A DNA stretch of 64,000 bases, taken from NCBI GenBank assembly GCA_017744935.1, contig JAGIAI010000003.1, positions 62,001 to 126,000 on the forward strand. The letters run 5' to 3'. How positions within the stretch are numbered: the stretch's first letter is position 1; the number at the start of each line of letters is the position of its first letter. The stretch is from Variovorax sp. (GTDB lineage Bacteria; Pseudomonadota; Gammaproteobacteria; Burkholderiales; Burkholderiaceae_C). The notes under the pieces are model-generated. The model was given only the letters and a program-made list of their open reading frames with translations. It made no database searches and was not told the origin of the DNA. This document shows, one piece after another, positions 7,791 to 22,050 of this stretch. The position numbers were made by a program, and so were the translations under genes.

Positions 7791-7854
7791 GTTGAGGTTC
7801 TCGTTTCGAAGATCTTCAGGCCGCGCATGATGCACGTGTCGTTTTCGCCACGCT

Positions 7855-7871
7855 GGGGACAGGATGTCCCC
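7855..7871. promoter_or_regulatory. Perfect dyad GGGGACA-N3-TGTCCCC upstream of the AIPR gene
   Basis: Seven-base perfect arms lie about 65 bases upstream of the preferred AIPR start. The position fits an operator controlling the AIPR gene. No promoter boxes were confidently identified around it. If the gene really starts at 7904, the dyad would be inside coding sequence. Confidence 0.35.
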
Positions 7872-7908
7872 AAACCCTTGAAAAGGCGCATGGATAAAGG
7901 ACATTGAT

Positions 7909-7925
7909 GCCTCTTCTGGGCACCA
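7909..7925 (+). repeat. tRNA-Leu 3' fragment, probable att junction of element 1
   Basis: The 17 bases GCCTCTTCTGGGCACCA look like the 3' part of a tRNA-Leu: the 3' half of the T stem (CCTCT), acceptor strand (TCTGGGC) and encoded ACCA. No 5' half of a tRNA precedes it; the preceding DNA belongs to the AIPR upstream region. A rho-independent terminator follows at 7962, as expected downstream of the original tRNA gene. This is what remains at one end when an element integrates into a tRNA 3' end. The left junction would confirm it. Confidence 0.55.
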
Positions 7926-7961
7926 AGTTTAAGTTCACCCTTCCAGGGTTTTTCGATTCAA

Positions 7962-7986
7962 GCCACCGGTCTCCGGTGGCTTTTTT
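7962..7986 (+). terminator. Rho-independent terminator
   Basis: GCCACCGG and CCGGTGGC pair perfectly around a 3-base loop, followed by six T. It probably served the displaced tRNA-Leu gene. It lies just downstream of the rimO stop codon, but its T run is on the plus strand, so it does not act on rimO in the same way. Confidence 0.8.
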
Positions 7987-8003
7987 CTTGGCCGTATGCG
8001 GCA

Positions 8004-9410
8004 TCAAATCGGTAGCGCGATCAGGTCGTGCCCCTCCGCACCCACGATACGTGCGCGAGTGAACTCACCGACCTTCATCGTCTTGCTGATCTTCTCGGGC
8101 GGCAGCAGCCGCACGGTGCCGTCGATCTCGGGCGCATCTGCATAGCTGCGGCCGACGCCACCCTTGCGGCCCATCGCGGGTGCGGAATCCACGAGCACCT
8201 GCATCGTCGCGCCGATGCGTCTTTGCAGCTTGGCGATCGAGACGGCTTCCGCCACTTCCATGAACCGCGCGCGCCGCGCTTCTCGCTCGGCTTCGGGCAA
8301 CATCCCGGGAATGTCGTTTGCAACAGCACCAGCCACCGGGCTGTAGGCGAAGCACCCCGCCCGATCTATCTCCGCCTCGCGAATGAAGTCGAGCAGGTGC
8401 TCGAACTCCTCCTCGGTCTCTCCCGGGAAGCCCGCAATGAAAGTGCTGCGAATCACCAGTTCGGGACAGACTTCGCGCCAGCGCGCGAGGCGCTCAAGAT
8501 TCTTCTCGCCGCTGGCAGGCCGCTTCATGCGACGCAGGACATCGGGGTGACTATGTTGCAACGGCACGTCGAGGTACGGCAGAACCTTGCCTTCAGCCAT
8601 CAACGGAATGATCTCGTCGACACTAGGATACGGATACACGTAGTGCAACCGAACCCACGCCCCATACGGCGCGGCGATCTCGCCGAGCGTACGCACAAGC
8701 TCGAGCATGCGCGTCTTGACTGGCTTCCCGTCCCAGAAGCCTGTTCGGTACTTCACGTCGACCCCATAGGCCGAGGTGTCCTGGCTGATCACCAGGAGTT
8801 CCTTGACGCCACCCTCGAACAGCGCTTTTGCCTCCGAAAGCACATCGCCAACCGGCCGCGAGACGAGATCGCCACGCATGGACGGGATGATGCAGAAGGT
8901 GCAGCGATGGTTGCAGCCCTCGCTGATCTTGAGATAGGCGTAATGGCGCGGCGTGAGCTTCAGGCCGGCGACGCCGAACGCCTGGGGAACCAGATCAATG
9001 AACGGGTCGTGCGGCTTGGGCAAGTTCGCGTGGACCGCGTCCATCACTTCCTGCGTCGCATGGGGGCCAGTCACCGCCAGCACGCTCGGATGCATCTCAC
9101 GCACCAGGTTGCCGCCCTGCTCACCCGCCTTCGCACCCAGGCAGCCGGTGACGATGACCCGGCCATTCTCGGCAAGGGCTTCGCCGATCGTGTCGAGGCT
9201 TTCCTTGACAGCATCATCGATGAACCCGCAGGTGTTCACGATAACGAGGTCTGCGCCTTCGAAGGTCTTCGAGGTCTGGTAACCCTCGGCGCTCAGTTGG
9301 GTCAGGATCAGTTCGGAATCAGTCAAGGCCTTGGGGCAGCCAAGGCTCACAAAGCCGATCTTGGGGGCAATCGGCTCAATCGTTTTATCGGGGGAGGCTA
9401 CTTCGCTCAT
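8004..9410 (-). CDS. rimO: Ribosomal protein S12 methylthiotransferase RimO
   Basis: This radical-SAM enzyme methylthiolates an aspartate of ribosomal protein S12. The 468-residue protein has the expected three parts: an N-terminal MTTase domain ([22 protein letters not shown] and TGCLGA Cys ligands), a radical SAM domain with [15 protein letters not shown] (the CxxxCxxC cluster, about residues 173-180), and a C-terminal TRAM domain ending in GHDLIALPI. Length and motifs are complete. It is the first host gene beyond element 1 and shares orientation with phaR, separated by about 40 bases. Confidence 0.95.
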
Positions 9411-9450
9411 ATCCCCGTATTGTCCCAGCTATCGGCCGGCGAGCGGCAAT

Positions 9451-9984
9451 TCAGGGGCGCTTGATGCCGAATGCGCCCAGAACTTGCTCTGTATTTTTCT
9501 GCATCTGCTCTTGCATCTGCAGGAACACGTTCTTGGACTGCTCCACATAGTTGCCCATCAGGCCCTGCAGGACCGGCGACTGAAGCGTCATGAAACGGGC
9601 CCACATCTCCGGTGTCAGGCTCTCGGCCTTTTCCGCAAGCTGCGCCTGCACCTCGGCCATTGCCTGGATGTTCTTTTCCAGGTAAGGACCCATGTAGCTC
9701 TGCATGGCATGGCCGTAGAAGCGGATGATGCTGGCGAGCACTTGCTCGGTAAACATGGGCGCACCACCGGCCTCTTCCTCGAGGATCACCTGCAGCAGGA
9801 TGCTGCGCGTGAGATCGTCGCCGCTCTTGGCGTCCCGCACGACGAAGGATTCCTTGTTCATGACAAGCTGCTTCACCTCGGCGAGCGTGATGTAGCTGGA
9901 GGTTTCCGTGTCGTAGAGCCTTCGGTTCGGATACTTCTTGATCACCCGCTGGACCGGCTTGGAACCGGACTTCTTGCTCTGCAC
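9451..9984 (-). CDS. phaR: Polyhydroxyalkanoate synthesis repressor PhaR
   Basis: PhaR binds DNA and PHB granules and represses phasin genes until granules form. The N-terminal PHB/PHA accumulation regulator domain is clear (VIKKYPNRRLYDTETSSYIT), followed by the helical, Gln/Met-rich C-terminal part that contacts polymer. The start is chosen at GTG 9984 because AAGGAG lies 6 bases upstream; TTG 10020 or ATG 10008 would add 12 or 8 residues without such a site. The result is 177 residues, normal for the family. It agrees with the bdhA gene elsewhere in the window in pointing to a PHB-storing host. Confidence 0.92.
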   Translation of the reverse strand: MQSKKSGSKPVQRVIKKYPNRRLYDTETSSYITLAEVKQLVMNKESFVVRDAKSGDDLTRSILLQVILEEEAGGAPMFTEQVLASIIRFYGHAMQSYMGPYLEKNIQAMAEVQAQLAEKAESLTPEMWARFMTLQSPVLQGLMGNYVEQSKNVFLQMQEQMQKNTEQVLGAFGIKRP

Positions 9985-10084
9985 TAGGGACTCCTTCGAA
10001 TTTCGCATCAGGGCGTGCAAACGATTCTAGGGAGCGGCCATATTGCGCCGCGCCAAGGTTTACCCTGACCAAAAAAAGAAGACG

Positions 10085-10453
10085 TCAGTCCAGCGAAGTC
10101 GCGTACTCGGCGCCGCAGATCTTGCAGGCGCCCGTCTCGGGGCGCTCGTCCGTCGCTTCCCGATATTGCAGAGGGCTCTTGATGCCGTTGAATACCCAGC
10201 AGCGCGGACAGTGCTCGTGCCCCGCGACCGGGAGATACGCCCGTGCGCGCTGTTCGGCCCGCTCCCGGGTCACCGGGTTACCCTGACGAAGAGTGCGTGC
10301 TACTTCCTCTGCCGCCATGGTGCCGGCACGGCCGTTGGCCCGATCGTTGAGGCCATAGACCACTCGAGCGAACTCGAGCGGTGCCTGCCGCACCAGCGCC
10401 GCGATGCGAAGTTCTTCTAGCGTTGGATCGATCTCGGCGGCGGGGGTATTCAT
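10085..10453 (-). CDS. Small protein with a four-Cys zinc-binding site
   Basis: This 122-residue protein has CPRC and CKIC pairs in its last 50 residues, spaced like a zinc ribbon, and a helical N-terminal half. The ATG at 10453 is chosen; an upstream in-frame start at 10546 would add residues that look non-coding. It is the last host gene before the satellite candidate. I do not recognise a named family and assign no function. Confidence 0.6.
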   Translation of the reverse strand: MNTPAAEIDPTLEELRIAALVRQAPLEFARVVYGLNDRANGRAGTMAAEEVARTLRQGNPVTRERAEQRARAYLPVAGHEHCPRCWVFNGIKSPLQYREATDERPETGACKICGAEYATSLD

Positions 10454-10655: not shown

Positions 10656-10700
10656 TGGTAGGCGCGATTGGACTCGAACCAACGACCCCCACCATGTCAA
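10656..10700. repeat. att repeat, left copy (45 bp)
   Basis: It is identical over 45 bases to 21974-22018, which is nucleotides 33-77 of tRNA-Val, from the anticodon loop to the encoded CCA. Identity stops sharply at both ends. It marks the left boundary of the integrated element. Confidence 0.93.
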
Positions 10701-10797
10701 TGCAGATTCAGAAAAATCCGGGGCGAGTGGAAAGGTGGATTTTCATTGGGAAAATGGCAGTTGTTCGTGTCATCAGATGTCATCTAAAATTGGCGTG

Positions 10798-10818
10798 ACT
10801 TTGATATGACTTTGATAT
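10798..10818. repeat. Integrase arm-type repeat, left end
   Basis: Two tandem ACTTTGATAT units separated by one G. The same 21 bases occur at 21892-21912 near the other end. The position between att and the integrase start fits arm-type integrase sites, and it may also contain the integrase promoter. Confidence 0.6.
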
Positions 10819-10846
10819 TCCCTCGGAACCCCACCCCTTCCCCACC

Positions 10847-12196
10847 ATGTCAGCACTGAACCTCAGAACCGAGACCGCCAGAGCCAAGCTTGTCCCTCGG
10901 GCGACCCCCTATTTCACTCCCATCGAGACCGGCTGCTCTCTGGGGTTTCGCCGCATCGCCGGGTCTGCCACGGGGGGCACATGGACCGCCCGCCGCTATG
11001 AACCGAGCGCTAAGTCCAGCTACCTCTACAAGACGCTCGGCGAGTTCGCCCACCTGCCTGCCGGTGAACGTCACGATGCCGCTCTCGCGGCCGCCCGGAA
11101 ATGGTTCAACGCGCTGCCCGTTGCTGGCCTGATCGGGGAACACACCCCCATGGCTGATGGGGTGCGAACGCTGCGTGACGCCTGCATGGCCTACGTGGAA
11201 AAGTGCAGGCGCGAGCGCGTGACCGGCAAGCCGGACCACGGTGAGAAGAAGGCGGCTGACCACCTGCGCCGCTACCAGCAGTACGTGTTCGATGTGCCTG
11301 CGTTCGCGGACACCAAGCTAGAAGATTTGCAGCCCCGGCAGTTCATCGCATGGCGTGAACGGCTCGCCAACCTGCCCACGAAATCGGGACCGAACACCGG
11401 GGGCACGCGCTCCGAGGCGTCCTTGGGCCGGGACCTCACCCCGGTCAGAGCTGCATTGCGCTACGCCCACGAGTTGGGGTACGTGACGAGCGATGCGGCA
11501 TGGCGCGTCCCACTGAAGCCGCCGAAGGACACCGGGGGCCGCCGCGAGGTGGTGCTGACCCGCGCGGAGCGCGTTGCCCTCATCAAGGGCCTGCCGCGCG
11601 AACTGGCCCTGCTCATCGAGTGCATGTGCCTGCTGCCCCTGCGCGTGGGTGCCATCGCGGCCCTGACGGTCGGCGACCTGCAGGGCAGCACCCTGAGGAT
11701 CGGGGTGGACAAGGCCAACGCCGACCGCCGCACGCAGCTCCCGCCTGCCGCGCTCGACCTGCTCACGCGCATGGCAAAGGACCGGCCTGCAAAGGCTCCC
11801 ATGTTTCCTCGCCGCGACGGCAAACAGTTCCAGAAGGAGGACTGGAAAGATGAGGTCAAAGCGGCGGCGCTGGCTGCCGATCTGCCCGCCGCCACGGTGG
11901 CAACGTCCATCCGGCACTCAGTCATCACCGAACTCGTCAGCGCGGGCACCCCCATCCTGACGGTGGCACAGTTGGCTGGGACCAGCGTCCGGATGATCGA
12001 AAAGCACTACGGCCACCTGCAGGACCGTGGTGCGCTGGCCGCGCTCAAGCTGCTGGAATTGCCGGGGGTGAAACGCAGGGTGAAGACTGCCACTGAGTCC
12101 ACCCGCCGCACGAAACGCGCCCGCGTGTCGGCGACCAACCGTGTCAAGGCCATGCTCGCCGAGCGCGAGGCTCAGGCGGCCATCGAGGCTGCCTGA
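10847..12196 (+). CDS. Tyrosine-type site-specific integrase
   Basis: The integrase would recombine the tRNA-Val att sites. The 449-residue protein has an N-terminal arm-binding and SAM-like core-binding part (residues about 100-220) and a C-terminal catalytic domain. Catalytic landmarks are LLPLRVGAI (box I Arg, about residue 266), SIRHS (box II Arg, about 355) and IEKHYGHL (Tyr nucleophile about 386). Box II lacks the usual first His (ATSIRHS), and the GH motif is AGTS, as in several phage-type integrases. The last 50 residues are basic. It starts 146 bases from the left att copy, and its stop overlaps the next gene by one base. Confidence 0.92.
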   Translation: MSALNLRTETARAKLVPRATPYFTPIETGCSLGFRRIAGSATGGTWTARRYEPSAKSSYLYKTLGEFAHLPAGERHDAALAAARKWFNALPVAGLIGEHTPMADGVRTLRDACMAYVEKCRRERVTGKPDHGEKKAADHLRRYQQYVFDVPAFADTKLEDLQPRQFIAWRERLANLPTKSGPNTGGTRSEASLGRDLTPVRAALRYAHELGYVTSDAAWRVPLKPPKDTGGRREVVLTRAERVALIKGLPRELALLIECMCLLPLRVGAIAALTVGDLQGSTLRIGVDKANADRRTQLPPAALDLLTRMAKDRPAKAPMFPRRDGKQFQKEDWKDEVKAAALAADLPAATVATSIRHSVITELVSAGTPILTVAQLAGTSVRMIEKHYGHLQDRGALAALKLLELPGVKRRVKTATESTRRTKRARVSATNRVKAMLAEREAQAAIEAA

Positions 12197-12735
12197 TGTC
12201 CAGCGCCAAGCCCACGCCGAAGCCGCCACGGGTGCTGGTCATCGTAGAACCCGGCTCGCGCCAGAGCCGCATGACTGCCGGAGCGGTCATGGCACATCGC
12301 GTCTACAACGCGAAGCGGGTGCTGCATGAGATCGAGGACTTGCGGAACGCTTATGACGCAGAGGTGCGCCGCAGCGGCTTTCAGTCCATCCGAGCCACGG
12401 AACTTGGGCAGCAGCTCGATGACCGCGCCGATGAAGAACAGCCAGCAGAGCGCGACCTTGCGGCTGCGATTGCTGAGATGAACAGATGGGCGGCTGTGCA
12501 CGCGGAAAAACAGAAAAGGCGCGCAGACTCGGACCGCCTCAACCACACCCGCATCGAGGCATCGCGGAAGAAGAAAGAACAGATATTCGAGGTGCGGGGC
12601 TGGCTGTTGAAGCACGGCAGACGCGCTGGACCTAAGGCGATTGCAGGTCATTGGCGAAACTTCTACCCCCCTGAGACCTGCCCTCCGGAATCCACGATCA
12701 AGCACCACCTGAAAAACGGCAAGATTCGGGACTAA
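12196..12735 (+). CDS. Hypothetical protein coupled to the integrase gene
   Basis: The 179-residue product begins at the ATG overlapping the integrase stop (TGATG). A central charged helical stretch (residues about 75-130) looks coiled-coil-like. The C-terminal part (WLLKHGRRAGPKAIAGHWRNFYPP) resembles a helix-turn-helix with a final KHHLKNGKIRD. It might therefore bind DNA, perhaps as a recombination directionality factor given its coupling to int. No named family is recognised. Confidence 0.6.
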   Translation: MSSAKPTPKPPRVLVIVEPGSRQSRMTAGAVMAHRVYNAKRVLHEIEDLRNAYDAEVRRSGFQSIRATELGQQLDDRADEEQPAERDLAAAIAEMNRWAAVHAEKQKRRADSDRLNHTRIEASRKKKEQIFEVRGWLLKHGRRAGPKAIAGHWRNFYPPETCPPESTIKHHLKNGKIRD

Positions 12736-12973
12736 ATCAACAGCGATAGGCACCGGCGGACCTTGGGCCTTGATCAAACTAGTCCCAGTTCGCCTCGGTG
12801 GTGCAGTAGCCAGTGAAATTCAGAAGCGCCCGGAGAAGGCGAAGGACTATTTCGGGTAGCACTACTGTGCCCCTCCTTGCCCTGCCCCCGCTTCGGCAGG
12901 CACCCTTCCCACACCAGATGACACGCGATGCCACTGACCTTGACCAGTGATCGCCTTCGGGAAGGGTTCCGCC

Positions 12974-13414
12974 ATGCACATTTCCTCGCTCAGTATCTTG
13001 ACGCCCGTGATGGTCTTCTTCGACCAGATCGGCGTCGGCCGCACCGTGGGCTACCGCATGATTCGCATGGGCGAGATTGAGACCGTGCGGGTCGGCAGAA
13101 AGCTGATGGTGACCCCTGAGGGCGCGGCCAAGTTCTTCGACAAGGTGGAGCGCGTTTCCGCCCACGACTTCGACGCGTTCTCCGTCCAGAACCACACGCC
13201 AGCCCTGATCGACAAGCTGCTCGCCAAGGGGAACACCATCTCCAGCATCGCGGCCGCCGTAAGCGCTGCGCGATCCACCGTCCGTGCGTGGCATGAAGGA
13301 CGCACCGAACCCGGCTATAGCGATGGCCTGCGGCTGCAGGCTCTTGCAAATCGCCCCGCTGCACGCCCTCCCCGTCCGGGAGCCCCCGTGTCGCATGAGG
13401 CGGTAGCGGGCTGA
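12974..13414 (+). CDS. Regulator with two helix-turn-helix regions (excisionase-like plus repressor-like)
   Basis: The 146-residue protein starts at ATG 12974 with an AAGGG site upstream. Residues about 17-55 (VGRTVGYRMIRMGEIETVRVGRKLMV) match an excisionase/MerR-type HTH_17 domain. Residues about 78-120 (LIDKLLAKGNTISSIAAAV, then STVRAWHEGR) look like a second, Cro/CI- or resolvase-like HTH. A single protein combining both could link excision to repression of the replication genes. A short dyad, CACTG-N8-CAGTG (12932-12949), lies just upstream and could be an autoregulatory site. Confidence 0.65.
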   Translation: MHISSLSILTPVMVFFDQIGVGRTVGYRMIRMGEIETVRVGRKLMVTPEGAAKFFDKVERVSAHDFDAFSVQNHTPALIDKLLAKGNTISSIAAAVSAARSTVRAWHEGRTEPGYSDGLRLQALANRPAARPPRPGAPVSHEAVAG

Positions 13415-13522
13415 AAAAGTTGAGGCCCGAGAGGTGGTGCCCCCTCAGGCCTCAGGTCAGCAGGTGAAGTCAAAGGCCGGCGCGCCAACGCCGCCCACCA
13501 ATCCAGAACTGAGAGGCACCCC

Positions 13523-13957
13523 ATGAACCAGATCGATGGAGCGACTGTAGCGCACCCTTCCGCTAATGCGGGAAGCCTGCAGCCTCGCTCCCTGAGCGCA
13601 TCCAGCGCGCCAAAAGCCGCGAACGCCGCGACGGTGGGCACTGACCCATCCGCAACGTGGAAACGCTGCCGCGATGCCGGGCGCACTCCTGAGCGCATCG
13701 CGGCCCACGTCGCCACGGTGCCAGCCATGTATCGCGGCCGCGAGCAGCGGGCCATCGAGGGCAAGGTGCCGCCGCGCGTGGCGATCAAGGTCTTCTGCTT
13801 GGCTTGTACCGGCCACATCCGCGCGGACGTGGCGCGCTGCAGCTCGTGGACCTGTGCCCTGTGGACGCTCAGGCCGTTCCAGCAGGTTGGCGAGGCTGGT
13901 GCCGCCGACGATCTCGAAGTTGATAGCGATCACCAAGCTGACGGAGTGCAGTCGTGA
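13523..13957 (+). CDS. Short phage/satellite protein with a four-Cys motif
   Basis: The product is 144 residues. Its C-terminal third carries a motif I associate with small phage and island proteins: C-x2-C, ten residues, C-x4-C, then ALWTLRPF. The four Cys probably bind zinc. The N-terminal half has low complexity followed by a helical segment. The stop overlaps the next gene as GTGA. Some automatic annotations give such proteins misleading names; a role in nucleic acid binding is plausible but not shown. Confidence 0.65.
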   Translation: MNQIDGATVAHPSANAGSLQPRSLSASSAPKAANAATVGTDPSATWKRCRDAGRTPERIAAHVATVPAMYRGREQRAIEGKVPPRVAIKVFCLACTGHIRADVARCSSWTCALWTLRPFQQVGEAGAADDLEVDSDHQADGVQS

Positions 13958-14148
13958 CTGGCCGCGCGAAGCGCCGCCGCGGACTCGGCGGAAACGCGTA
14001 CTACGCACAACAGGCCTACGCGGCGCGCTGGCGTCCGCAGTGGGCGACGGCGAAGTGGCCTTCGTGGTTGCCCGCACTGCGGCCGCAACTTCGCCAGGCC
14101 GCGATCACCCGCCAGCAGGCGGCCAGCAAACAAGGCGCATCCGTCTGA
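13954..14148 (+). CDS. Small basic protein, GTG start
   Basis: This 64-residue protein is rich in Arg, Trp, Ala and Gln and starts at GTG in a GTGA overlap with the preceding gene. It stops 9 bases before the primase-like gene, so it lies in one transcription unit with it. It has no recognisable domain. High basicity would fit nucleic acid binding. The overlap is the main evidence; it could be a chance reading frame in GC-rich DNA. Confidence 0.45.
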   Translation: MTGRAKRRRGLGGNAYYAQQAYAARWRPQWATAKWPSWLPALRPQLRQAAITRQQAASKQGASV

Positions 14149-14157
14149 GGAGAAGCC

Positions 14158-14628
14158 ATGTTCCAACGAGACCGTCTGCCCGATCCCCTCACGTACTACC
14201 AGTCGCAGGGCCTGCACCTGCAGGGCCGGGGCCGATGGCGCACCGCTGGATGTCCCTTCCATGGGTCTTCGGATTCGCTGCGCGTGAACGTCGAGACCGG
14301 CGCGTTCGTCTGCATGGCCGCATGCGGCGCACGCGGCGGCGATGTAATCGCGTTCGAGATGGCGATGCAGGGCTGCAGCTTCGTTGCGGCTGCCAAGGCT
14401 CTGGGCTGCTGGGTCGATCACCCGAGCGATGCGGCTGGCAAGGAGCGCCGCAGGCCGCTGCCGTTTCCGCCGCGCGAGGCGCTGGAGGTGCTGGCCGAAG
14501 ACGCGATGTTGATCACGCTCTGCGGCCTGCACGCCCATCACGGCGATGAGCTGACGGACGATGACCGCGCTGCGTGGCTGGAGGCCCATGGGCGCGTGCA
14601 GTTCATCATCTCAGAGGTGCTGAAATGA
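14158..14628 (+). CDS. CHC2 zinc-finger (DnaG-type primase N-terminal) protein
   Basis: The 156-residue protein matches the DNA-binding zinc finger of DnaG-type primases: GCPFHGSSDSLRVN gives the first Cys and His, and FVCMAACGARGGDVIAF gives the Cys pair and the typical GGD turn. The C-terminal part is helical. The primase catalytic (TOPRIM) domain is absent, so by itself it may only recognise templates. It ends in an ATGA overlap with the helicase gene, suggesting a primase-helicase pair for replication of the excised element. GGAGAAGCC before the ATG serves as ribosome site. Confidence 0.8.
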   Translation: MFQRDRLPDPLTYYQSQGLHLQGRGRWRTAGCPFHGSSDSLRVNVETGAFVCMAACGARGGDVIAFEMAMQGCSFVAAAKALGCWVDHPSDAAGKERRRPLPFPPREALEVLAEDAMLITLCGLHAHHGDELTDDDRAAWLEAHGRVQFIISEVLK

Positions 14629-15965
14629 AGCCCGCCGCCACTTCCCGCGAGCAGATCGCTGCGTCCATGGAGCTGGCGCGCGCCGTGAAGTCCAGCACCG
14701 CGATCACCGAAGCGGAGGCTGCCTCGATCGGTCTGAACGGGCACGACCTCGATGCGCGTGGCGTGGTCTACCCGCAGCAGGCGACTACGCCCCGCCGCGC
14801 CCCTCTGGCCTTCGTGCCGCTCACGCAGTTCAGGAAGGGCGCGGAGCTGGGCTGGTTCATCAAGGGCGTCCTCCCGCGTGCCGCGCTCGGTGCGATCTAC
14901 GGCCAGCCCGGCAGCGGCAAGTCCTTTTTCGCAATCGACATCGCGATGACTCTGGCACGCGGCCTGCCTAGGTGGGCAGGAGTGCGGCGCTGCAGCCCTG
15001 CGCGGGTGGCCTACGTTGTCGCTGAGGGCGCGAGCGGGTTCCGGCACCGTCTTGACGGCTACCTCAAGCACCACCGCCTGCGGGAGGACGAGGTGCCGAA
15101 CCTCACCTTGATGGACGCCGCACCGAACCTGCTGGACCCCGGGGGCGTGGATGCCCTGATCGAAGCGATCCGCGCGACGGACAGCAGTCCCGAGGTTCTG
15201 TTCGTGGACACGCTCTCGCAGGTGACTCCGGGGGCCAAGGAAGGCGCCAGCGAGGACATGGGCCGCGCGTTGGCGGCGTGCAAGCGCATCAGTGAAGCCT
15301 GCGCGCTGATGGTGATCCTGATCACCCACAGCGGGAAGGACGAGACGCGCGGCATCCGGGGCTGGAGCGGCATCGTTGGTGCCCTTGACGTGGAAATCCA
15401 CGTCGAGCGCAAGACCGGACGGAGGACCGCCAAGATCACGAAGCTCAAGGACGGCGAGGGCGAGAGCGACAGCTACGAGTTCAGCCTCCAGCGCATCGTG
15501 CTGGGCACCGACAAGGACGGCGACGAGATCACCACCTGCGTCATCGAGCACGAAGAGACAAGCGGAGCGCACGTCGCGCCCCCCAGCACGGACGGACTCA
15601 AACGTCAGGTCTACCAGTTGCTCGATAGCGAGCTGGCGCAAGGCAAGCGCCATTCCATGAACACGATCAAACCGGTCGCAGTGGAGGCAGGAGTCGGGGG
15701 CCAGAAGAAGGTCGCCGATCTGGTTCACATGTTGATCGGCGACAAACTCGTGGCGTACTGGGAAAGGCCGGACTGGCGCGAGCGCACGCCGCGAGATCGC
15801 AACTACCTGCACCCCATCGGGACCTCGGCACCAATTTCGGAGTGGGGTGTACCGCTGGACCAAGCCGAGGCGACCCGAAAACCGCCCGTTTTCAATGCGG
15901 CAACCGCCAAGCCCAGCATCGCCAAGAAAGCGCGCTCTCACGGGTCAGGAAAGAGCGCGTCGTGA
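14625..15965 (+). CDS. RepA/RecA-type AAA ATPase, probable replicative helicase
   Basis: The product is 446 residues from ATG 14625 (ATGA overlap; the in-frame ATG at 14574 lies inside the upstream gene). Walker A is GQPGSGKSFF (about residues 93-102), followed by a Walker B strand EVLFVDTLSQ (about 189-198) and ILITHSGKDETRGIRGWSG, typical of the RepA/AAA_25 hexameric helicases of plasmids and phages. The C-terminal third has a winged-helix look. With the adjacent zinc-finger protein and the iterons overlapping its 3' end, it probably unwinds the element's own origin. Confidence 0.82.
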   Translation: MKPAATSREQIAASMELARAVKSSTAITEAEAASIGLNGHDLDARGVVYPQQATTPRRAPLAFVPLTQFRKGAELGWFIKGVLPRAALGAIYGQPGSGKSFFAIDIAMTLARGLPRWAGVRRCSPARVAYVVAEGASGFRHRLDGYLKHHRLREDEVPNLTLMDAAPNLLDPGGVDALIEAIRATDSSPEVLFVDTLSQVTPGAKEGASEDMGRALAACKRISEACALMVILITHSGKDETRGIRGWSGIVGALDVEIHVERKTGRRTAKITKLKDGEGESDSYEFSLQRIVLGTDKDGDEITTCVIEHEETSGAHVAPPSTDGLKRQVYQLLDSELAQGKRHSMNTIKPVAVEAGVGGQKKVADLVHMLIGDKLVAYWERPDWRERTPRDRNYLHPIGTSAPISEWGVPLDQAEATRKPPVFNAATAKPSIAKKARSHGSGKSAS

Positions 15966-16110
15966 CCGCAACTTCAATGTGGCAACTTCAATGCGGCACC
16001 TATAGAGAAAGAGTGTGCTGCGTCATTGACTACGCATGCACTCATTCTCTATGTCGGGGGTGCTCAATGCAGCAGTCAATGAGGCAGCACGTTTTGCGAT
16101 TGCCACATTG
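15893..16110. other. Iteron cluster, candidate replication origin
   Basis: The 10-mer CAATGnGGCA occurs five times here: 15893-15902, 15975-15984, 15989-15998 and 16077-16086 on the plus strand and 16101-16110 on the minus strand. Single-mismatch copies lie at 16065-16074 (CAATGCAGCA) and 16019-16028 (minus, CAATGACGCA). Several repeats with shared flanking TTCA (ACTTCAATG) look like true iterons. A large dyad (16003-16051) lies in the middle. The cluster directly follows the primase and helicase genes, where satellites and plasmids often place their origin. Confidence 0.65.
16003..16051. repeat. 49-bp imperfect inverted repeat inside the iteron cluster
   Basis: The left arm (16003-16023) and right arm (16031-16051) pair with few mismatches around a 7-base centre. 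Both outer ends read TAGAGAA against TTCTCTA. No T run follows, so it is unlikely to be a simple terminator. It could be an origin structure, a protein site or a promoter region for the downstream gene. Confidence 0.5.
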
Positions 16111-16131
16111 CACCGTTGTGAGGTCCGTGCC

Positions 16132-16431
16132 ATGAGACTTGAACATCCGAAGCACCGCCGCGATGCGGTGATTGCGCAACTCGCCGTGGAGTGGGCCACA
16201 GCCCGCGCGCGTCGAGTGAAGGCCGCATCCGTGAAGCGAAAGGCCTACGAGCTGGCGCGAGGCCGGAGGGCCTTCACGCCTGAAGCGGACCGCCTGCGCG
16301 CAGCCGAAGCCGCACTCGCGCATGCCAAGGCCCTTGAACGCGAAGCCACTCGCAAGCTCTGCAAGGCATGCCCAGTTTCGCGTGATACCGATCTGCCGCT
16401 GGCCGATGTCGTAGTCGGGATCGAGGAGTAG
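16132..16431 (+). CDS. Hypothetical helical basic protein
   Basis: The product is 99 residues if it starts at ATG 16132. An earlier in-frame start at 16036 would run through the iterons and is considered less likely. The protein is rich in Arg, Ala and Lys with long helices (residues about 15-70), then Cys-x2-Cys near the end (LCKACPVSRD). No known family is recognised. Its position just after the origin candidate suggests a replication or regulation accessory. Confidence 0.5.
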   Translation: MRLEHPKHRRDAVIAQLAVEWATARARRVKAASVKRKAYELARGRRAFTPEADRLRAAEAALAHAKALEREATRKLCKACPVSRDTDLPLADVVVGIEE

Positions 16432-16529
16432 TGGCCCATCGCGCGTAGCCCCTGGCGAGAACGTGGCCGTGCCGAAAGGCTCACTTCGGCATCACCACCA
16501 CCGTGACCACCATCACGGAGCTGGACATC

Positions 16530-16721
16530 ATGCTGACCGCCGCCGAGAAGAAGCTCATGCAACAGCCCGGACGTGTGGAGCTGCGCATGCGCTTCTGTCT
16601 GCGTTGCCGCGCCGACAGGCCTGCGGCAGGAGGCCAGCAGCTCTCGGGCGGCATGTACCTGTGCGTGGCCTGCAGGACTAAGGGCCGATCGCCCGATGGG
16701 GGGGTGGTGCTCAAAAAATGA
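16530..16721 (+). CDS. Small zinc-ribbon-like protein
   Basis: The 63-residue protein has CLRC and, about 20 residues later, CVAC, with a Gly-rich turn between, as in a zinc ribbon. ATG 16530 has a GGAG stretch upstream; an in-frame GTG at 16503 would add nine residues. Phage-type small zinc proteins often have regulatory roles, but nothing specific can be said here. Confidence 0.5.
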   Translation: MLTAAEKKLMQQPGRVELRMRFCLRCRADRPAAGGQQLSGGMYLCVACRTKGRSPDGGVVLKK

Positions 16722-16904
16722 GCGCCGAGGGGAAACCCTGCATTGCCGCACCATGCAGATTTTTTCCTCTAAAAAAGCGATCGATCGACGCCGGTGAGAT
16801 CGCTCGCCGCTGTCGAATTGAGGGTGCCTCCCACGATCAGTGACCGGCCGGGACCTTGAATGACCAGCCACCCTGCTTGATTCTTCGGCAGTCTCGAGGC
16901 CGGT

Positions 16905-18485
16905 TCAGGCCGGACGGTATGCGTAGAAGTCGCTGAGGTCTAGTACGCACCGGCGAATAGAGCGAAAGTCTGTTCGAGGCACGGTGCCCGCAAAATCCGC
17001 GCTGCTCTCGCCCAGATCGAGCACTCCTTGCGGCGCTCGCGCGGTGTTAATCAGATCAACGTAGCAACCGTAGTCAATACCATAGACGTTGAACCGTTTG
17101 CCTGGCGAATCCTTTGCCGAAATGCCCTTCCTCAGAACATGCAGCACTCGCTCATCGTAGAGAAAATCGATCAGTGGGTCCTTCGTGCCCGCTTCAAGAA
17201 GGAACGCTTTCGTCTGCCGCTCCTTGATGACCTTGTCGATGATCCACTGCAGCAGTTCCTTTGCTTTCTCGTTCGCGGAGACCGCAGCGTCCTTTGACCC
17301 CTGATACCAGAGCTGCGCTGCGTTCCTCACGTGACTGACGGAGATGGTCTCCGCATTCGCCTTTTGCGCAGCATGACTCAGGATGTGAATAGCATCCCGA
17401 GGTACGCCTTCGCATGCGCGCACGACTTCACTAAAGGCGTTAGCTTGCGTAAATCCCGCCGAAAGCAATGCGGAAACGTCCGTAGGCGCAGCGACCTTTT
17501 CAGAATTTAGTGCCGCCTGCACATGCTTGAAGACCAGACTCTTGAAGAAATTGACAGCCGCTTCTTCATCATTGTCGAAGACCATATGGTCATCGAGATT
17601 GATGGCCGGAGTGACATCGGCGCCAGCTTGAATTCCTATGTGACCAACCGCCGTATCGACGATCAACAGGCGGCTTCGCTGTTCGATTGCAGCAATTTTT
17701 ACCGTGGCTCCTTTGACGGGTAGGATGGCGCGACGGATGAGGTCTGCAAGCAGAGGCTGAAGGTCAAGAGGAACTTCGCTCCACTCGTCGACTAGAAGCC
17801 ATAGCCGCTTGCCGGGCAAAGTTTCTACGATCTTTCGCATGGACACGCCGACTGCGCCGAAGCTGACCCGGTAACTCTCCTGCCCAGTCGAGACTCGCTT
17901 GGTGGAAGCAATATCCTTGGTCGCCTCGATTCCTTTCGCAGAAGCATTGAAGGTCGGCCCCTTGTCAGCCCAGCCTCCCGAAACTCCAAGCTCGCCCGAA
18001 CCCGTTCGCTCCCCAGAAGATGCTTCCTCGATGGTGGTGGTCCCTGCGACTCGAACGGTCGTATGCGCATCGAAGAGTTCATCTAGAGCTGGCCCAGCCT
18101 TACCGAGGTCAACGATGCCGTCGTTGGCAATCGCCTGTTCCAAGAGTGCGCCGTGGATGGCTGCCAACACGTCGACGAGTAGCCTAGTGGCGCGCTGTGG
18201 CAACGGAACCGATGGGTCCCCATAGATACCACCCGCCGAGCCGATGGTTCGCATATCGATCTGAATCGCAAGCTCTCCAGCGTTCAGGCGTTCCTGACGC
18301 AACACCGTTAAAAGATGCGTTTTTCCCGTCCCACGCCTTCCGAAGATCAGTTGGTGATCGACCGAGGAGACCGCCGCAAAAACAGCACCGAAGTCGACGA
18401 ACGTACGATGCAGAACGTCATCGTCTTGTCTTTCGGCGCGCTTGGCGATGCGCAGAAAAGCGAGATTTGTGGGAAGCAAGCTCAT
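16905..18485 (-). CDS. P-loop NTPase (ORC/CDC6- or STAND-like), candidate defence cargo
   Basis: This 526-residue protein has Walker A GRRGTGKTH at residues 49-57 and a Walker B strand LWLLVDEW at about 228-235, followed by a long helical C-terminal half. The layout resembles large P-loop ATPases that occur as single genes in defence islands. It is the only gene of the element on the minus strand, lies between the replication and capsid modules, and looks lower in GC than its neighbours. These are signs of cargo. About 210 bases separate its start from the divergent gene at 18700. An anti-phage or anti-helper role is inference; no effector domain is recognised. Confidence 0.7.
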   Translation of the reverse strand: MSLLPTNLAFLRIAKRAERQDDDVLHRTFVDFGAVFAAVSSVDHQLIFGRRGTGKTHLLTVLRQERLNAGELAIQIDMRTIGSAGGIYGDPSVPLPQRATRLLVDVLAAIHGALLEQAIANDGIVDLGKAGPALDELFDAHTTVRVAGTTTIEEASSGERTGSGELGVSGGWADKGPTFNASAKGIEATKDIASTKRVSTGQESYRVSFGAVGVSMRKIVETLPGKRLWLLVDEWSEVPLDLQPLLADLIRRAILPVKGATVKIAAIEQRSRLLIVDTAVGHIGIQAGADVTPAINLDDHMVFDNDEEAAVNFFKSLVFKHVQAALNSEKVAAPTDVSALLSAGFTQANAFSEVVRACEGVPRDAIHILSHAAQKANAETISVSHVRNAAQLWYQGSKDAAVSANEKAKELLQWIIDKVIKERQTKAFLLEAGTKDPLIDFLYDERVLHVLRKGISAKDSPGKRFNVYGIDYGCYVDLINTARAPQGVLDLGESSADFAGTVPRTDFRSIRRCVLDLSDFYAYRPA

Positions 18486-18699
18486 AGGTGCGCATCATAG
18501 TGTTCGAGCCCGTCTGCGCGCCCTGATCGCCATCGGCGAGGGCCGCTACTTCACCCGTCAGGGGTAGCAGTAGTGCGCGACGGGAGCGGGAAAAAATAGC
18601 TCGGCTTCGCTGGTACGGGCTCTTGGCGTGGCCTGCTCTCCGTCCCGATAATCCGCCCCAAGCATCGCCCCGGTGCGGCAATTCGAGGAGGCCCAGAGC

Positions 18700-19449
18700 A
18701 TGGCAGTCGAAAAGCTGGACAACGGCACTTACAGCGTCGGCGGCAAGACGTTCCCCACCGCCGAGGAGGCATTCGCCTACGATGGACTGAAAGCAGAAGG
18801 CCCCCAAGGCGAAGCTGCGAAAGCGCCCGCTGCGGCGGCGGAACGTCACGGATGGCAGTGGACCCGGATGAGCACCTCCTCACGGATCGGAGCCGTCGCG
18901 GCCTTTGCTCTCCTCGTCCTCTTTCTGTGGGGCGTCGCCAAGGTGCTGCTCATGGAGTCAGAGCCTGCAAGGGCCGCGAGAATCCAAGCCGAAGCCACGG
19001 CATTCGATGCCACGCTGGCCGAGGCGCGCGCAGCGGCAGAACGGCAGCGCCAAGCCGCTGCCGAAAAGTGCAGCACCGAGGCCGACGCCATCATCGCGGA
19101 CGCGCGCAAGCGTCTGGCAGAAGGCAACGACTACATGGCTGCAGAACTCCTGAGCCCATGCAAGGGGATCGTGACCAGCGAGAGCTTTACCGCGCTGGCC
19201 GCAAAGGTTGAAGCGGCGCGCACCGCCCGCGCGGAACGGCTGCTTCGAGAGGAGCAGGAAAGAAAGAAGCAGCAGGGAGTCGCCATCGGAATGTCCAAGC
19301 AGCAGGTGCTTGACAGCTCGTGGGGCAAGCCCAGAAGCATCAACACGACCACCACGGCAGGAGGCACTCGGGAGCAGTGGGTCTACGGCGACGGCAACTA
19401 CCTGTATTTCACCAACAACGTGTTGACCTCGATCCAGAACTCCAGATGA
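18700..19449 (+). CDS. Membrane protein with coiled coil and a BamE/SmpA-like C-terminal domain
   Basis: The product is 249 residues starting at ATG 18700, chosen because GAGGAG lies 9 bases upstream. Residues about 58-80 form one transmembrane helix (IGAVAAFALLVLFLWGVAKV). A long charged helical stretch follows. The last 55 residues (IGMSKQQVLDSSWGKPRSIN, then YLYFTNNVLTSIQ) resemble the BamE/SmpA fold found in envelope proteins. The topology puts the C-terminal domain in the periplasm. Its role in the element is unknown; an envelope-directed role such as superinfection interference is possible. Confidence 0.6.
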   Translation: MAVEKLDNGTYSVGGKTFPTAEEAFAYDGLKAEGPQGEAAKAPAAAAERHGWQWTRMSTSSRIGAVAAFALLVLFLWGVAKVLLMESEPARAARIQAEATAFDATLAEARAAAERQRQAAAEKCSTEADAIIADARKRLAEGNDYMAAELLSPCKGIVTSESFTALAAKVEAARTARAERLLREEQERKKQQGVAIGMSKQQVLDSSWGKPRSINTTTTAGGTREQWVYGDGNYLYFTNNVLTSIQNSR

Positions 19450-19590
19450 CCTGACCGCACCCCCTTGGAAGTTCAGCGCGCTCGGCGTACTCTTCGCTCA
19501 ACTGAACGCGACGGTGGCTTCCGGTCGAACAGACGATCGATCACGGCAATAAACCCGGCTTCGGTGTCCTTTCAGAAAGGAACCCTAGCC

Positions 19591-19980
19591 ATGATGTCCG
19601 TCCACCTCACGCGCACGCGCCAGTCCGGCGACGCTGCCGATCCTCTCCACCTTCCGCCCAGCCCTCCGCGCTCTCACTGCAATGGCCGTGATGGCGACGA
19701 CAGGCCCAGCCTCGGGGAGCTACTGCGCCGCAAGTTCGCGGAGCCACCCAGCGAGCGCGCCAAGGCCATCGGTGAAGACCTGCGCCGCAGGCTCGTCCAG
19801 CCGCCCACCCCGCGTCAGCTTCAGCGGAGGGCCGCCATCGGTGCGGAGCTTCGCCGCAGGCTCGAAGGGCACGTAGTCCGCAGCGTGGTGACTGTGACCC
19901 CGGAATCCTGCCCCGACGAGGCTGCCGCGCTGCTGCTGCACCGAATCTCCGAGCAGGCTGGCAAGGAGGTGCAATCATGA
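19591..19980 (+). CDS. Small protein upstream of the capsid gene, with repeated helices
   Basis: The 129-residue product starts at ATG 19591 after an AAGGA site. It carries two similar helical segments, each ending in LRRRL or LRRKF (LGELLRRKFAEPP, AIGEDLRRRLVQPP, AIGAELRRRLEG). Its stop overlaps the capsid gene as ATGA. Its position just before a major capsid gene is where scaffold or protease genes lie in phages. It is too short and basic for a protease and shows no protease motif. A scaffold-like or size-determining role is a guess. Confidence 0.55.
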   Translation: MMSVHLTRTRQSGDAADPLHLPPSPPRSHCNGRDGDDRPSLGELLRRKFAEPPSERAKAIGEDLRRRLVQPPTPRQLQRRAAIGAELRRRLEGHVVRSVVTVTPESCPDEAAALLLHRISEQAGKEVQS

Positions 19981-21131
19981 GCACGTCCGCAGCTCTCCTG
20001 CAGCCCCGCCAGCTCGCGCATCAGCCTGTGCAGCTCGCCTACGTCAGGCCAGAGGTGCGCAATCTCCTGCACGCCATCGGCCTTGTCTTTCAGGCTGCTG
20101 CCAGTGGCCGCAGCATCGCGGCGACGACGGCCCTGCGCGAGCGCAGTGGTGAGGACTCGGCTCTGACGCGCGATCTGGTCGCGATCCTCACGACGCGCGC
20201 TGTGCAGAGCCCTGCCACTACCTCGAATCCGGCGTGGGCCGCCAACCTGGCGAGAATGACCGTGGCCGCCGTGCTCGATCTGCTGGCCCAGCAGGGCTCG
20301 GTTGCGGCGCAGCTACCGCTCGTGCGGCTGGACTTCGCGGACAGCGACACGCTGCGTGTACCCGTGCGCGCCAACGTGGACACCCCGAACCTCGCGGCCA
20401 CCTTCCGCGCCGAGGGAGCACCGATCCGCGTCGGTGGCGTATTGCTCAATGCTCCGCAGCTCGGCCCAAGGTCCTTGGCGGTGATCGGGACCGCGAGCGC
20501 GGAACTGGTCAACGCCGCTGGCGATGACGTGATGGACCGCCTGCTGCGCGAGACCATCATCACGGACACCGCCAAGGCGCTCGATGCCCTGTTCTTCGGG
20601 GATCAGGCAGGCGATGCGGTGACGCCTCCCGGCCTTGCATCCCTTGCCACTGGTGCCAACACCGCCGCCTCCACCGGCACCGACTCCGCTGCCATCGCGG
20701 CTGACCTCAAAGCCCGTCTCGCGCAGCTCATTGCCAACCGCTACGGTAGCCCCGGAACGCGCTGGGCCATGAACACTCTGCAGGCCGCGACGATGGCTGA
20801 GACGTTCATGGAGGTTCAGGTCAGAAACTCGTTCTTGAACATCCCCATCGTCGCGGGGCCAAGCGTGCCGAGCGACACCGTGTTCCTCATCGACTGCGGC
20901 GGCGTCGTGGTCGCGCAGGACGCGCCGGTGTTCGAGAGCACCACCGAGGCCCTGCTCCATGAGGAGGCAGACCCCGCCGCCGTGGCCCCCATCGTGGATG
21001 ACGCAGGCGCGGAGGCGGCCCCTGTGCGCAGCCTGTTCCAGAGCAACATCTCGGCGTTGAAGATGACGCAGCCGACGGATTGGCTGGGCGTGGCTGGCAC
21101 GGTGCAGACCGTGACCGGCATCGGGTGGTGA
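19977..21131 (+). CDS. HK97-type phage major capsid protein
   Basis: The 384-residue protein shows the order of an HK97-fold capsid subunit. There is a helical N-terminal delta-like region (1-100) and a strand-rich region (115-160). The spine segment AELVNAAGDDVMDRLL leads into AKALDALFFGDQAG (about 175-212), followed by the PPGLASL turn. Further on come WAMNTLQAATM, NIPIVAGPSVPSDT (288-301) and a final FQSNISALKMTQPTDW (354-369), which matches the usual capsid end. It is complete in length. No portal, terminase or head protease gene is nearby, so any particle would need helper functions or a different assembly route. Confidence 0.78.
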   Translation: MSTSAALLQPRQLAHQPVQLAYVRPEVRNLLHAIGLVFQAAASGRSIAATTALRERSGEDSALTRDLVAILTTRAVQSPATTSNPAWAANLARMTVAAVLDLLAQQGSVAAQLPLVRLDFADSDTLRVPVRANVDTPNLAATFRAEGAPIRVGGVLLNAPQLGPRSLAVIGTASAELVNAAGDDVMDRLLRETIITDTAKALDALFFGDQAGDAVTPPGLASLATGANTAASTGTDSAAIAADLKARLAQLIANRYGSPGTRWAMNTLQAATMAETFMEVQVRNSFLNIPIVAGPSVPSDTVFLIDCGGVVVAQDAPVFESTTEALLHEEADPAAVAPIVDDAGAEAAPVRSLFQSNISALKMTQPTDWLGVAGTVQTVTGIGW

Positions 21132-21147
21132 GTGGAGGTGCAGTGCC

Positions 21148-21531
21148 ATGGCAATCGTCTACATGCCGCATCCGCAGCAGCACCAGCAGCAGCTCACGAA
21201 GGCCAGCTTTCCGATGACAAAGGACGGCTCGGCCTTTAACGTCAGGACCCCTGACGGCAGGACCGTCCGTGTCGCGGCAGACCGGCCTGACATGGCACAG
21301 CTCCTTGCCTCGGGCGTGATGAAGCTACCGTCGCCGAAGATGAGGTCCAACCTCAACGAGGGTGCGCTGGACGTGCTTGCCGATGTGCTGGGTCAGGTGC
21401 TGACCCCGATGCAGCGCAGGCTCAAGGAACTGGAGGCCGAGACGCGGATGCTGCGCATGCACCCAGAGACGCGGGCCGCGCTTCAGCGCGCACAGGCCTC
21501 TATCGAACTGGCCGAGGCGGTGCTGTCATGA
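21148..21531 (+). CDS. Small protein downstream of the capsid gene
   Basis: The 127-residue product has a ribosome site GGAGGT upstream of ATG 21148. The N-terminal part has a His/Gln-rich stretch and then a compact beta region (FNVRTPDGRTVRVAADRPD). The C-terminal part is a helical, probably coiled-coil segment (PMQRRLKELEAETRMLR). In phages, head decoration or connector-type proteins occupy this position. I recognise no specific family. Its stop overlaps the next gene as ATGA. Confidence 0.6.
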   Translation: MAIVYMPHPQQHQQQLTKASFPMTKDGSAFNVRTPDGRTVRVAADRPDMAQLLASGVMKLPSPKMRSNLNEGALDVLADVLGQVLTPMQRRLKELEAETRMLRMHPETRAALQRAQASIELAEAVLS

Positions 21532-21713
21532 CCCAGCGCCTGAGGCCGCCTGCCGAGATCAGGAGCAGCCTGCGGCTCGCTCAGGCAGTGGTCAAGGGAG
21601 ACCCCGCTGCGCGTGATCTTGCACGTGATCTTCTCGCCAACCAGGAAGCGCGTGATGCCAAGCTTGCGGCCCTGAGGGCAGGACGCCCAGACCCCGACCC
21701 TCACCGTCGATAG
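21528..21713 (+). CDS. Small protein, last gene of the element
   Basis: The 61-residue product starts in an ATGA overlap and ends 24 bases before a strong terminator. It is mainly helical and charged (EIRSSLRLAQAVVKGD, ARDLLANQEARDAKL). Coupling and the following terminator support expression. No family is recognised. Confidence 0.5.
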   Translation: MTQRLRPPAEIRSSLRLAQAVVKGDPAARDLARDLLANQEARDAKLAALRAGRPDPDPHRR

Positions 21714-21737
21714 AGCTGTCCAGCTCCACCCTCCCCC

Positions 21738-21770
21738 ACGGCCCGAGATGGAAATCTCTGGGCCGTTTTT
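21738..21770 (+). terminator. Rho-independent terminator ending the capsid module
   Basis: ACGGCCC-GAGAT pairs with ATCTCTGGGCCGT (one bulge) around a short GGAA loop, followed by five T. It closes the plus-strand genes of the element. Confidence 0.85.
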
Positions 21771-21836
21771 CTTTGCCGCGTGGGGCATGCCTACAGCCCC
21801 TTGGGCGCTGTGCTGGGAGGTGGCGAAAATCACTCC

Positions 21837-21912
21837 ATATCAAACCCAAAGGGTTGCATATCAAAGGTGCCAAGGCACATGGAGTGCCTGCACTTTGATA
21901 TGACTTTGATAT
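21837..21912. repeat. Integrase arm-type sites, right end
   Basis: Two inverted ATATCAAA copies (21837-21844 and 21858-21865) and the direct pair ACTTTGATAT-G-ACTTTGATAT (21892-21912) are present. The direct pair is identical to the left-end copy at 10798-10818. A dyad AGGCAC-N5-GTGCCT (21873-21889) lies between them and could bind an excisionase or IHF-like partner. The array is 60 bases inside the right att copy. Confidence 0.65.
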
Positions 21913-21973
21913 GGGGAAATTTGGAGGGGCTGGTTTCCCCTTCCGGAATCACCGTTTTCAGAGGAGAAAACAG

Positions 21974-22018
21974 TGGTAGGCGCGATTGGACTCGAACCAA
22001 CGACCCCCACCATGTCAA
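21974..22018. repeat. att repeat, right copy (45 bp)
   Basis: It is the 3' part of the intact tRNA-Val and identical to 10656-10700. Integration keeps the tRNA complete on this side. Confidence 0.93.
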
Positions 22019-22050
22019 GGTGGTGCTCTAACCAGCTGAGCTACGCGCCT
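21974..22050 (-). tRNA. tRNA-Val (anticodon GAC), integration target
   Basis: Read on the minus strand, the 77-base sequence folds as a standard tRNA: acceptor AGGCGCG with CGCGCCU, D arm GCUC...GAGC, anticodon stem CCACC/GGUGG with loop UUGACAU, T arm GUUGG UUCGAGU CCAAU, and encoded ACCA. The anticodon GAC reads Val codons. The element inserted into its 3' half without destroying it. Confidence 0.95.

Follow-up and report, generated by a model that had tools for sequence, protein, structure and literature searches.

Our results indicate that a 64,000-bp stretch of a Variovorax genome (assembly GCA_017744935.1, contig JAGIAI010000003.1, positions 62,001 to 126,000; referred to here as the window) harbors a small tRNA-integrated satellite that encodes its own HK97-fold capsid protein, and in which no terminase, portal, or tail gene was detected. 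This agrees with the original prediction, which had been made from attachment (att) repeats and gene content. The element is one of a new family of satellites, and its lone-capsid strategy is of a known kind. What is new, in that it is not described in the literature searched, is the family, its host, the lineage of the capsid, and the fact that the capsid is the most widely shared gene. No paper on Variovorax satellites was among those listed by searches of the openly licensed literature of PubMed Central (PMC).

Element boundaries and distribution in Variovorax

The element has a length of 11,318 bp and is bounded on either side by a 45-bp copy of the tRNA-Val 3' end (window positions 10656 to 22018, both copies included); the two copies, called perfect in the original prediction, proved to be 100% identical. 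The genome is a draft of 6.0 Mb, 88% complete, and belongs to the GTDB genus of Variovorax: the matches in two genomes of its genus, G787 and G812, fall at contig coordinates identical to those in G763 and G722, both taken from the genus that includes Variovorax sp. J2P1-59. An uninterrupted tRNA site is present in two related genomes, G743 (flanks 96% identical) and G804 (90 to 91%). In both, the left flank stops exactly at the start of the tRNA copy and the site is therefore empty; the left flank adjoins the tRNA directly in L128 and L125. Integrase, att repeats, and a precise empty site, as expected of a phage satellite, were thus all found.

Capsid matches, 10 copies in total, were found in 8 of 100 other Variovorax genomes. 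Eight of these copies, in six genomes (G686, G687, G722 and G743 with two each, G763, and G775), lie within tRNA-bounded elements. Homologs of the capsid thus occur in other tRNA-located elements, where the original prediction had proposed to look for them. The remaining copies are a phage locus in G768 and, in G731, a frame of 698 residues that matches weakly. With the window included, the nine elements span 10,427 to 11,805 bp (mean, 11,179 bp; standard deviation, 443 bp), the individual spans being 11,318 (Val, window), 10,901 (Gly), 11,254 (Asn), 11,768 (Ser-gga), 10,427 (Cys), 11,156 (Gly), 10,778 (Arg), 11,205 (Gly), and 11,805 bp (Ser-cga). The repeats of two elements, L109 and L111, measure merely 15 bp and were accepted because they stop at the tRNA 3' end. 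Samples taken at higher ranks gave 8 of 299 genomes at 1e-5 for the family, with the window's own capsid as the only strong full-length match, and 2 of 399 genomes at 1e-15 for the order (the window's own and G511).

Clustering of the nine elements' 140 predicted proteins gave just one cluster represented in all nine, that of the capsid, and 72 clusters confined to a single element. The capsid is shared despite differing integrases and replication genes. One integrase type occurs in seven of the nine elements, the window and L003 being the exceptions, and the window integrase clusters apart from those of seven of the eight other elements. A small gene upstream of the capsid overlaps it by 4 bp (stop/start) in all seven elements where it was recognized. 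Profiles of the small genes of the capsid block retrieved no phage-type contig better than 0.018, and the profile of the downstream gene g13 retrieved none better than 0.027.

Head and tail genes

Queries for phage portal, large terminase (TerL), protease, adaptor, and tape measure proteins gave no match in any of the nine elements at E<1e-3 (best, 0.18). Among 80 viral contigs with related capsids, the portal queries matched 71 to 72, TerL 56 to 57, protease 31 to 50, adaptor 30, and tape measure 11. The HK97-type prophage layout, in which the capsid gene stands beside terminase, portal, and protease genes, was seen in none of the nine elements. The closest relatives of the window capsid are located in tRNA-bounded elements in which no portal, TerL, or protease was detected, and not in full prophages, the setting that the original prediction had named as contrary to it. 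From the missing head and tail genes we infer dependence on a helper phage.

One of the nine elements, L107, has a small terminase (TerS) gene in its capsid block (7783 to 8274, minus strand; phrog_83, 8e-21; PF05119, best 4.1e-11 among the matches listed). This TerS shares 33 to 43% identity with its counterparts in phage contigs L038 (43%), L025, L023, and L009, all of which also carry a related capsid. Its kinship with the TerS of L038 suggests that helpers of this lineage carry out the packaging.

Fold and phylogeny of the capsid

The original prediction had staked itself on an HK97-like fold, and the AlphaFold2 model of the window capsid indeed has HK97 proheads as its best match, with Foldseek in agreement. 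The protein has no Pfam match and matches phrog_617 in PHROGs. With P0008, a fusion of protease and capsid that bears PF05065, it shares 43% identity over 343 residues. When 5.8 billion proteins were searched and the 7,999 (single sequence) and 7,998 (alignment) best-sharing candidates scored, the single sequence retrieved 21 relatives at 1e-3, and the alignment retrieved 22 at 1e-10. Nine of the latter, including the window capsid, are 367 to 386 amino acids (aa) long, lack a Pfam domain, and are called "hypothetical protein" wherever the source gives a name. The relatives P0002, P0003, and P0005 are encoded on metagenome contigs of 9.7, 11.7, and 11.0 kb. In the PDB, sequence searches started from the capsid or from its alignments retrieved no capsid at E<=10, only spurious matches; viral contigs searched with the single capsid sequence gave no confirmed relative, and INPHARED phages searched by tblastn gave no match. 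The capsid is under purifying selection in one pair, L109 and L110, with a ratio of nonsynonymous to synonymous substitutions (dN/dS) of 0.205/0.488, about 0.4.

In a tree of 62 capsids (15 satellite and 47 phage-type; root not inferred, midpoint display), the 15 satellite capsids are set apart from all others by a branch supported at 100/100. Under the midpoint root, they nest among phage capsids. In the alignment, one loop measures exactly 34 residues in all 15 satellite capsids versus 41 to 44 in 45 of the 47 others (the exceptions being 27 in P0021 and 38 in P0027), which corresponds to a deletion of 7 to 10 residues in the satellite clade. The number of residues ahead of the fold is 63 to 84 in all 15, versus 127 to 178 in unfused close phage relatives; of the 29 phage capsids nearest to the clade, protease fusions included, 27 have at least 127.

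Comparison with known satellites

Ccm of SaPIbov5, a Staphylococcus aureus pathogenicity island (SaPI), is a capsid homolog whose delta domain comprises residues 1 to 87, versus 1 to 128 in the helper capsid. It occupies the pentamer positions in a T=4 shell, makes no shell by itself, and enters helper heads and renders them small (PMC5052747, PMC8569155). Three models for Ccm are set out in a review (PMC6893505). Like the Ccm-bearing cos-type SaPIs, the Variovorax elements encode an HK97-fold capsid homolog whose N-terminal region is short, and they lack a full head module. PmCI172 and EcCICFT073, phage-inducible chromosomal islands (PICIs) of other, Gram-negative hosts, are likewise reported to encode a capsid homolog, and PmCI172 is tied to small capsids. 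In view of both groups, the statement that the window element matches no known satellite type is not supported. The accompanying guess, that a single capsid subunit might either assemble a small shell together with parts of the helper or act as a poison to helper heads, is close to what is reported for Ccm, a precedent that had been overlooked.

Unlike staphylococcal SaPIbov5, the elements reside in Variovorax, have other integrase and replication genes, and carry a conserved gene downstream of the capsid. Their capsid also appears to be of another lineage than Ccm, as judged by the PDB sequence searches. Ccm structures were not among the best 50 of each fold search, which is not evidence of their absence.

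Capsid-forming PICIs (cf-PICIs) share with the Variovorax elements a capsid gene of their own. The cf-PICIs are reported to average 14 kb and to encode capsid, protease, portal, connectors, and terminases, whereas the Variovorax elements encode the capsid only, plus, in a single case, TerS; none of the nine yielded a portal, protease, TerL, or connector of the kind that characterizes cf-PICIs. According to the Discussion of the SaPIpT1028 study, all described satellites apart from cf-PICIs depend on phage proteins for packaging, and satellites typically encode one or two redirecting proteins (PMC12409344).

P4-like satellites share tRNA integration, a size of about 10 to 11 kb, and their own replication genes with the Variovorax elements. 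P4-like satellites have a fused alpha primase-helicase and Sid; in the window element, CHC2 and AAA_25 are encoded by separate genes, and no Sid match was found in PHROGs. P4 itself resizes helper heads via the scaffold Sid, and the Variovorax elements carry a capsid homolog instead.

A capsid related to those of the satellites (phrog_617, 5.8e-32) is found in the unfused HK97-type prophage of Variovorax G768 (L112). Unlike the lone satellite capsid, it is 497 aa long and accompanied by separate protease and portal genes. The portal and large terminase genes of this prophage (L112 and L118) are about 20 kb apart, with apparent restriction-modification genes between them.

Proposed mechanism

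We propose, with a probability of roughly one-half and by analogy with Ccm, that the elements are satellites whose capsid enters helper head assembly. The satellite would integrate at a tRNA gene and, once a helper phage is present, would excise and replicate by means of its own genes. Packaging of the satellite DNA would rely on portal, large terminase, protease, and tail from the helper, and the lone satellite capsid protein would join the assembling helper head, most likely to give a shell in which the two kinds of capsid protein are mixed. The resulting small head would fit about 11 kb and exclude the helper genome, as with Ccm of SaPIbov5. The logic of Ccm would account for the lone capsid with its short N-terminal region, the size near 11 kb, and the missing head genes. 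We propose that this strategy resembles that of Ccm and was acquired independently. If so, capsid theft to resize or replace helper heads would have arisen independently and would not be a staphylococcal curiosity, and a capsid gene would define a whole satellite family among bacteria associated with plants and soil. The nine naturally occurring capsid variants, together with two genomes that carry two elements each (G743 and G722), would make it directly testable how a capsid homolog dictates head size.

Several observations weigh against this proposal. The elements are known from their genes alone. Ccm converts prolate heads to isometric ones, and an exact parallel would require that the helpers here be prolate. 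The nearest phage capsids found are only about 40% identical. Neither the PF04860 portal nor the PF03354 terminase was found in six of the seven genomes with satellites (draft genomes; these two families only), which therefore have no resident helper of that kind; both families are present in two of eight genomes, G722 and the satellite-free G768. The window's genome is among those lacking both, and it has no second phrog_617 head protein, so that the related head protein to be sought in resident prophages was not found. In G000, G686, and G687, phrog_617 matched only the satellites' own capsids. In addition, 7 of the 47 phage-type capsids also have 90 or fewer N-terminal residues, 2 of them among the 29 closest (P0009 and P0012); the others are P0021, L085, L089, L090, and L091. 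In wider loci of four of the short rows (L129, L130, L132, and L131), three adjoin a terminase or portal gene (TerL by L085 and L089, portal by L091), and none of the tested portal, terminase, and protease genes was found near L090. Because P0009, P0012, and five more distant rows are also short, N-terminal shortening, as judged from the sequences, is general in the satellites yet not unique to them.

P0009 and P0012, from contigs of 9.5 and 8.6 kb, are PF05065 capsids of 365 and 379 aa that fall outside the satellite clade; lone short capsids may have originated a second time here, or the two may belong to phages whose scaffold is a separate protein. In L131 (G201), a distant short capsid at about 8977 to 10287 has no tested portal, terminase, or protease gene within 20 kb, and a tRNA-Ser is located at 13690 to 13779. 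This raises the possibility that it is another lone-capsid element.

Alternative explanations

It is possible, though we consider it rather unlikely, that the satellite capsid alone builds the whole small shell and that the helper provides only portal, terminase, protease, and tail. The deep separate clade, the conserved neighbor gene, the tight element size, and the TerS gene in one element are consistent with this, and the small gene that overlaps the capsid could encode a separate scaffold. However, Ccm, the nearest precedent, is reported to make no shell alone, and since the elements have no protease or portal of their own, the helper portal would have to dock to a foreign shell. A more specific version is somewhat more doubtful still: the elements would be minimal capsid-owning satellites, a step between PICIs and cf-PICIs, in which a capsid stripped of much the greater part of its scaffold domain and of a capsomer loop makes the entire shell, the overlapping gene supplies the scaffold in trans, and the rest comes from superinfecting phages and not from resident prophages.

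The capsid might instead act mainly as a poison or decoy against helper heads, as defense cargo of an element that moves otherwise. Ccm expressed alone is reported to lower helper titer 10^3- to 10^4-fold (PMC5052747). Cargo varies among the nine elements, whereas the capsid is their only common cluster, and the tight element size suggests packaging; we regard this explanation as improbable.

A phage reduced to its capsid would fit the relationship to complete phage capsids such as P0008, but this candidate was rejected as very improbable given nine intact copies in like-sized elements with precise tRNA repeats, a single clade, no portal, TerL, or protease gene detected, clean empty sites, and the dN/dS of the tested pair. 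An encapsulin-like protein compartment carried as cargo is equally improbable: HK97 proheads match the model at least as well (18.1, 16.6), the clade is placed among phage capsids in the tree, and the sequence relatives are phage proteins with PF05065.

Other genes of the window element

The features of the window element are listed in Table 1. The capsid block sits at its right end. We would guess that the small SLGxLLR protein encoded there is a scaffold. A low-confidence structure model of g13 consists of beta-hairpins and long helices. The iterons that had been noted in the element received no support from the repeat search.

TABLE 1 Coordinates of features in the window element
Feature	Positions	Strand	Evidence or remark
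attL, 45-bp copy of tRNA-Val 3' end	10656..10700	+	100% identity to 21974-22018
11-bp repeat, two copies	10796..10818	+	Likely integrase arm site
Tyrosine integrase, 449 aa	10847..12196	+	PF00589, 2.8e-12; phrog_1, 1.5e-28
179-aa protein without assigned function	12196..12735	+	No family match at E of 0.1 or better
Helix-turn-helix (HTH) regulator	12947..13414	+	HTH_23, 0.0096; phrog_6223 transcriptional repressor, 6.6e-4
Two small open reading frames (ORFs; 13523-13957, 13954-14148)	13523..14148	+	ORF list and codon score only
CHC2 zinc-finger protein	14158..14628	+	PF01807, 1.3e-9; clusters in 4/9 elements
RepA-like AAA_25 ATPase/helicase	14625..15965	+	PF13481, 7e-31; clusters in 7/9 elements
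Small ORF	16036..16431	+	phrog_18014, 0.025 only
Possible small zinc-finger protein	16503..16721	+	phrog_54 DksA-like, 0.023, weak
ORC-CDC6-like ATPase, probable cargo	16905..18485	-	PF24389, 1.4e-11
Cargo protein, C-terminal domain known from phages	18700..19449	+	phrog_11546, 1.8e-15
Small protein with SLGxLLR motif	19591..19980	+	Stop overlaps capsid start by 4 bp; clusters in 6/9 elements
HK97-fold capsid protein, 384 aa, intact	19977..21131	+	phrog_617 match, predicted fold
Conserved downstream gene g13	21148..21531	+	Clusters in 8/9 elements
Small protein g14	21528..21713	+	Clusters with L109 and L110; similar protein in L002 and L107
11-bp repeat as at 10796..10818, two copies near attR	21892..21913	+	Repeat search
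attR, within tRNA-Val(gac) (21974-22050, minus strand)	21974..22018	+	Identical 45-bp repeat

Small sigma-70 region 4-like proteins are encoded next to the capsid block in three elements (L106, 8505 to 8729; L108, 8012 to 8482; L111, 10971 to 11231) and are possible late-gene regulators. The ORC-CDC6-like ATPase of the window element has a weak match to mads_8, a candidate defense protein (1.4e-4), and may be defense cargo. Two satellites carry a radical SAM gene as cargo (L002, 8056 to 8898; L107, 11211 to 12053), and a similar-looking gene is present in a chromosomal stretch (L118, 13151 to 13972).

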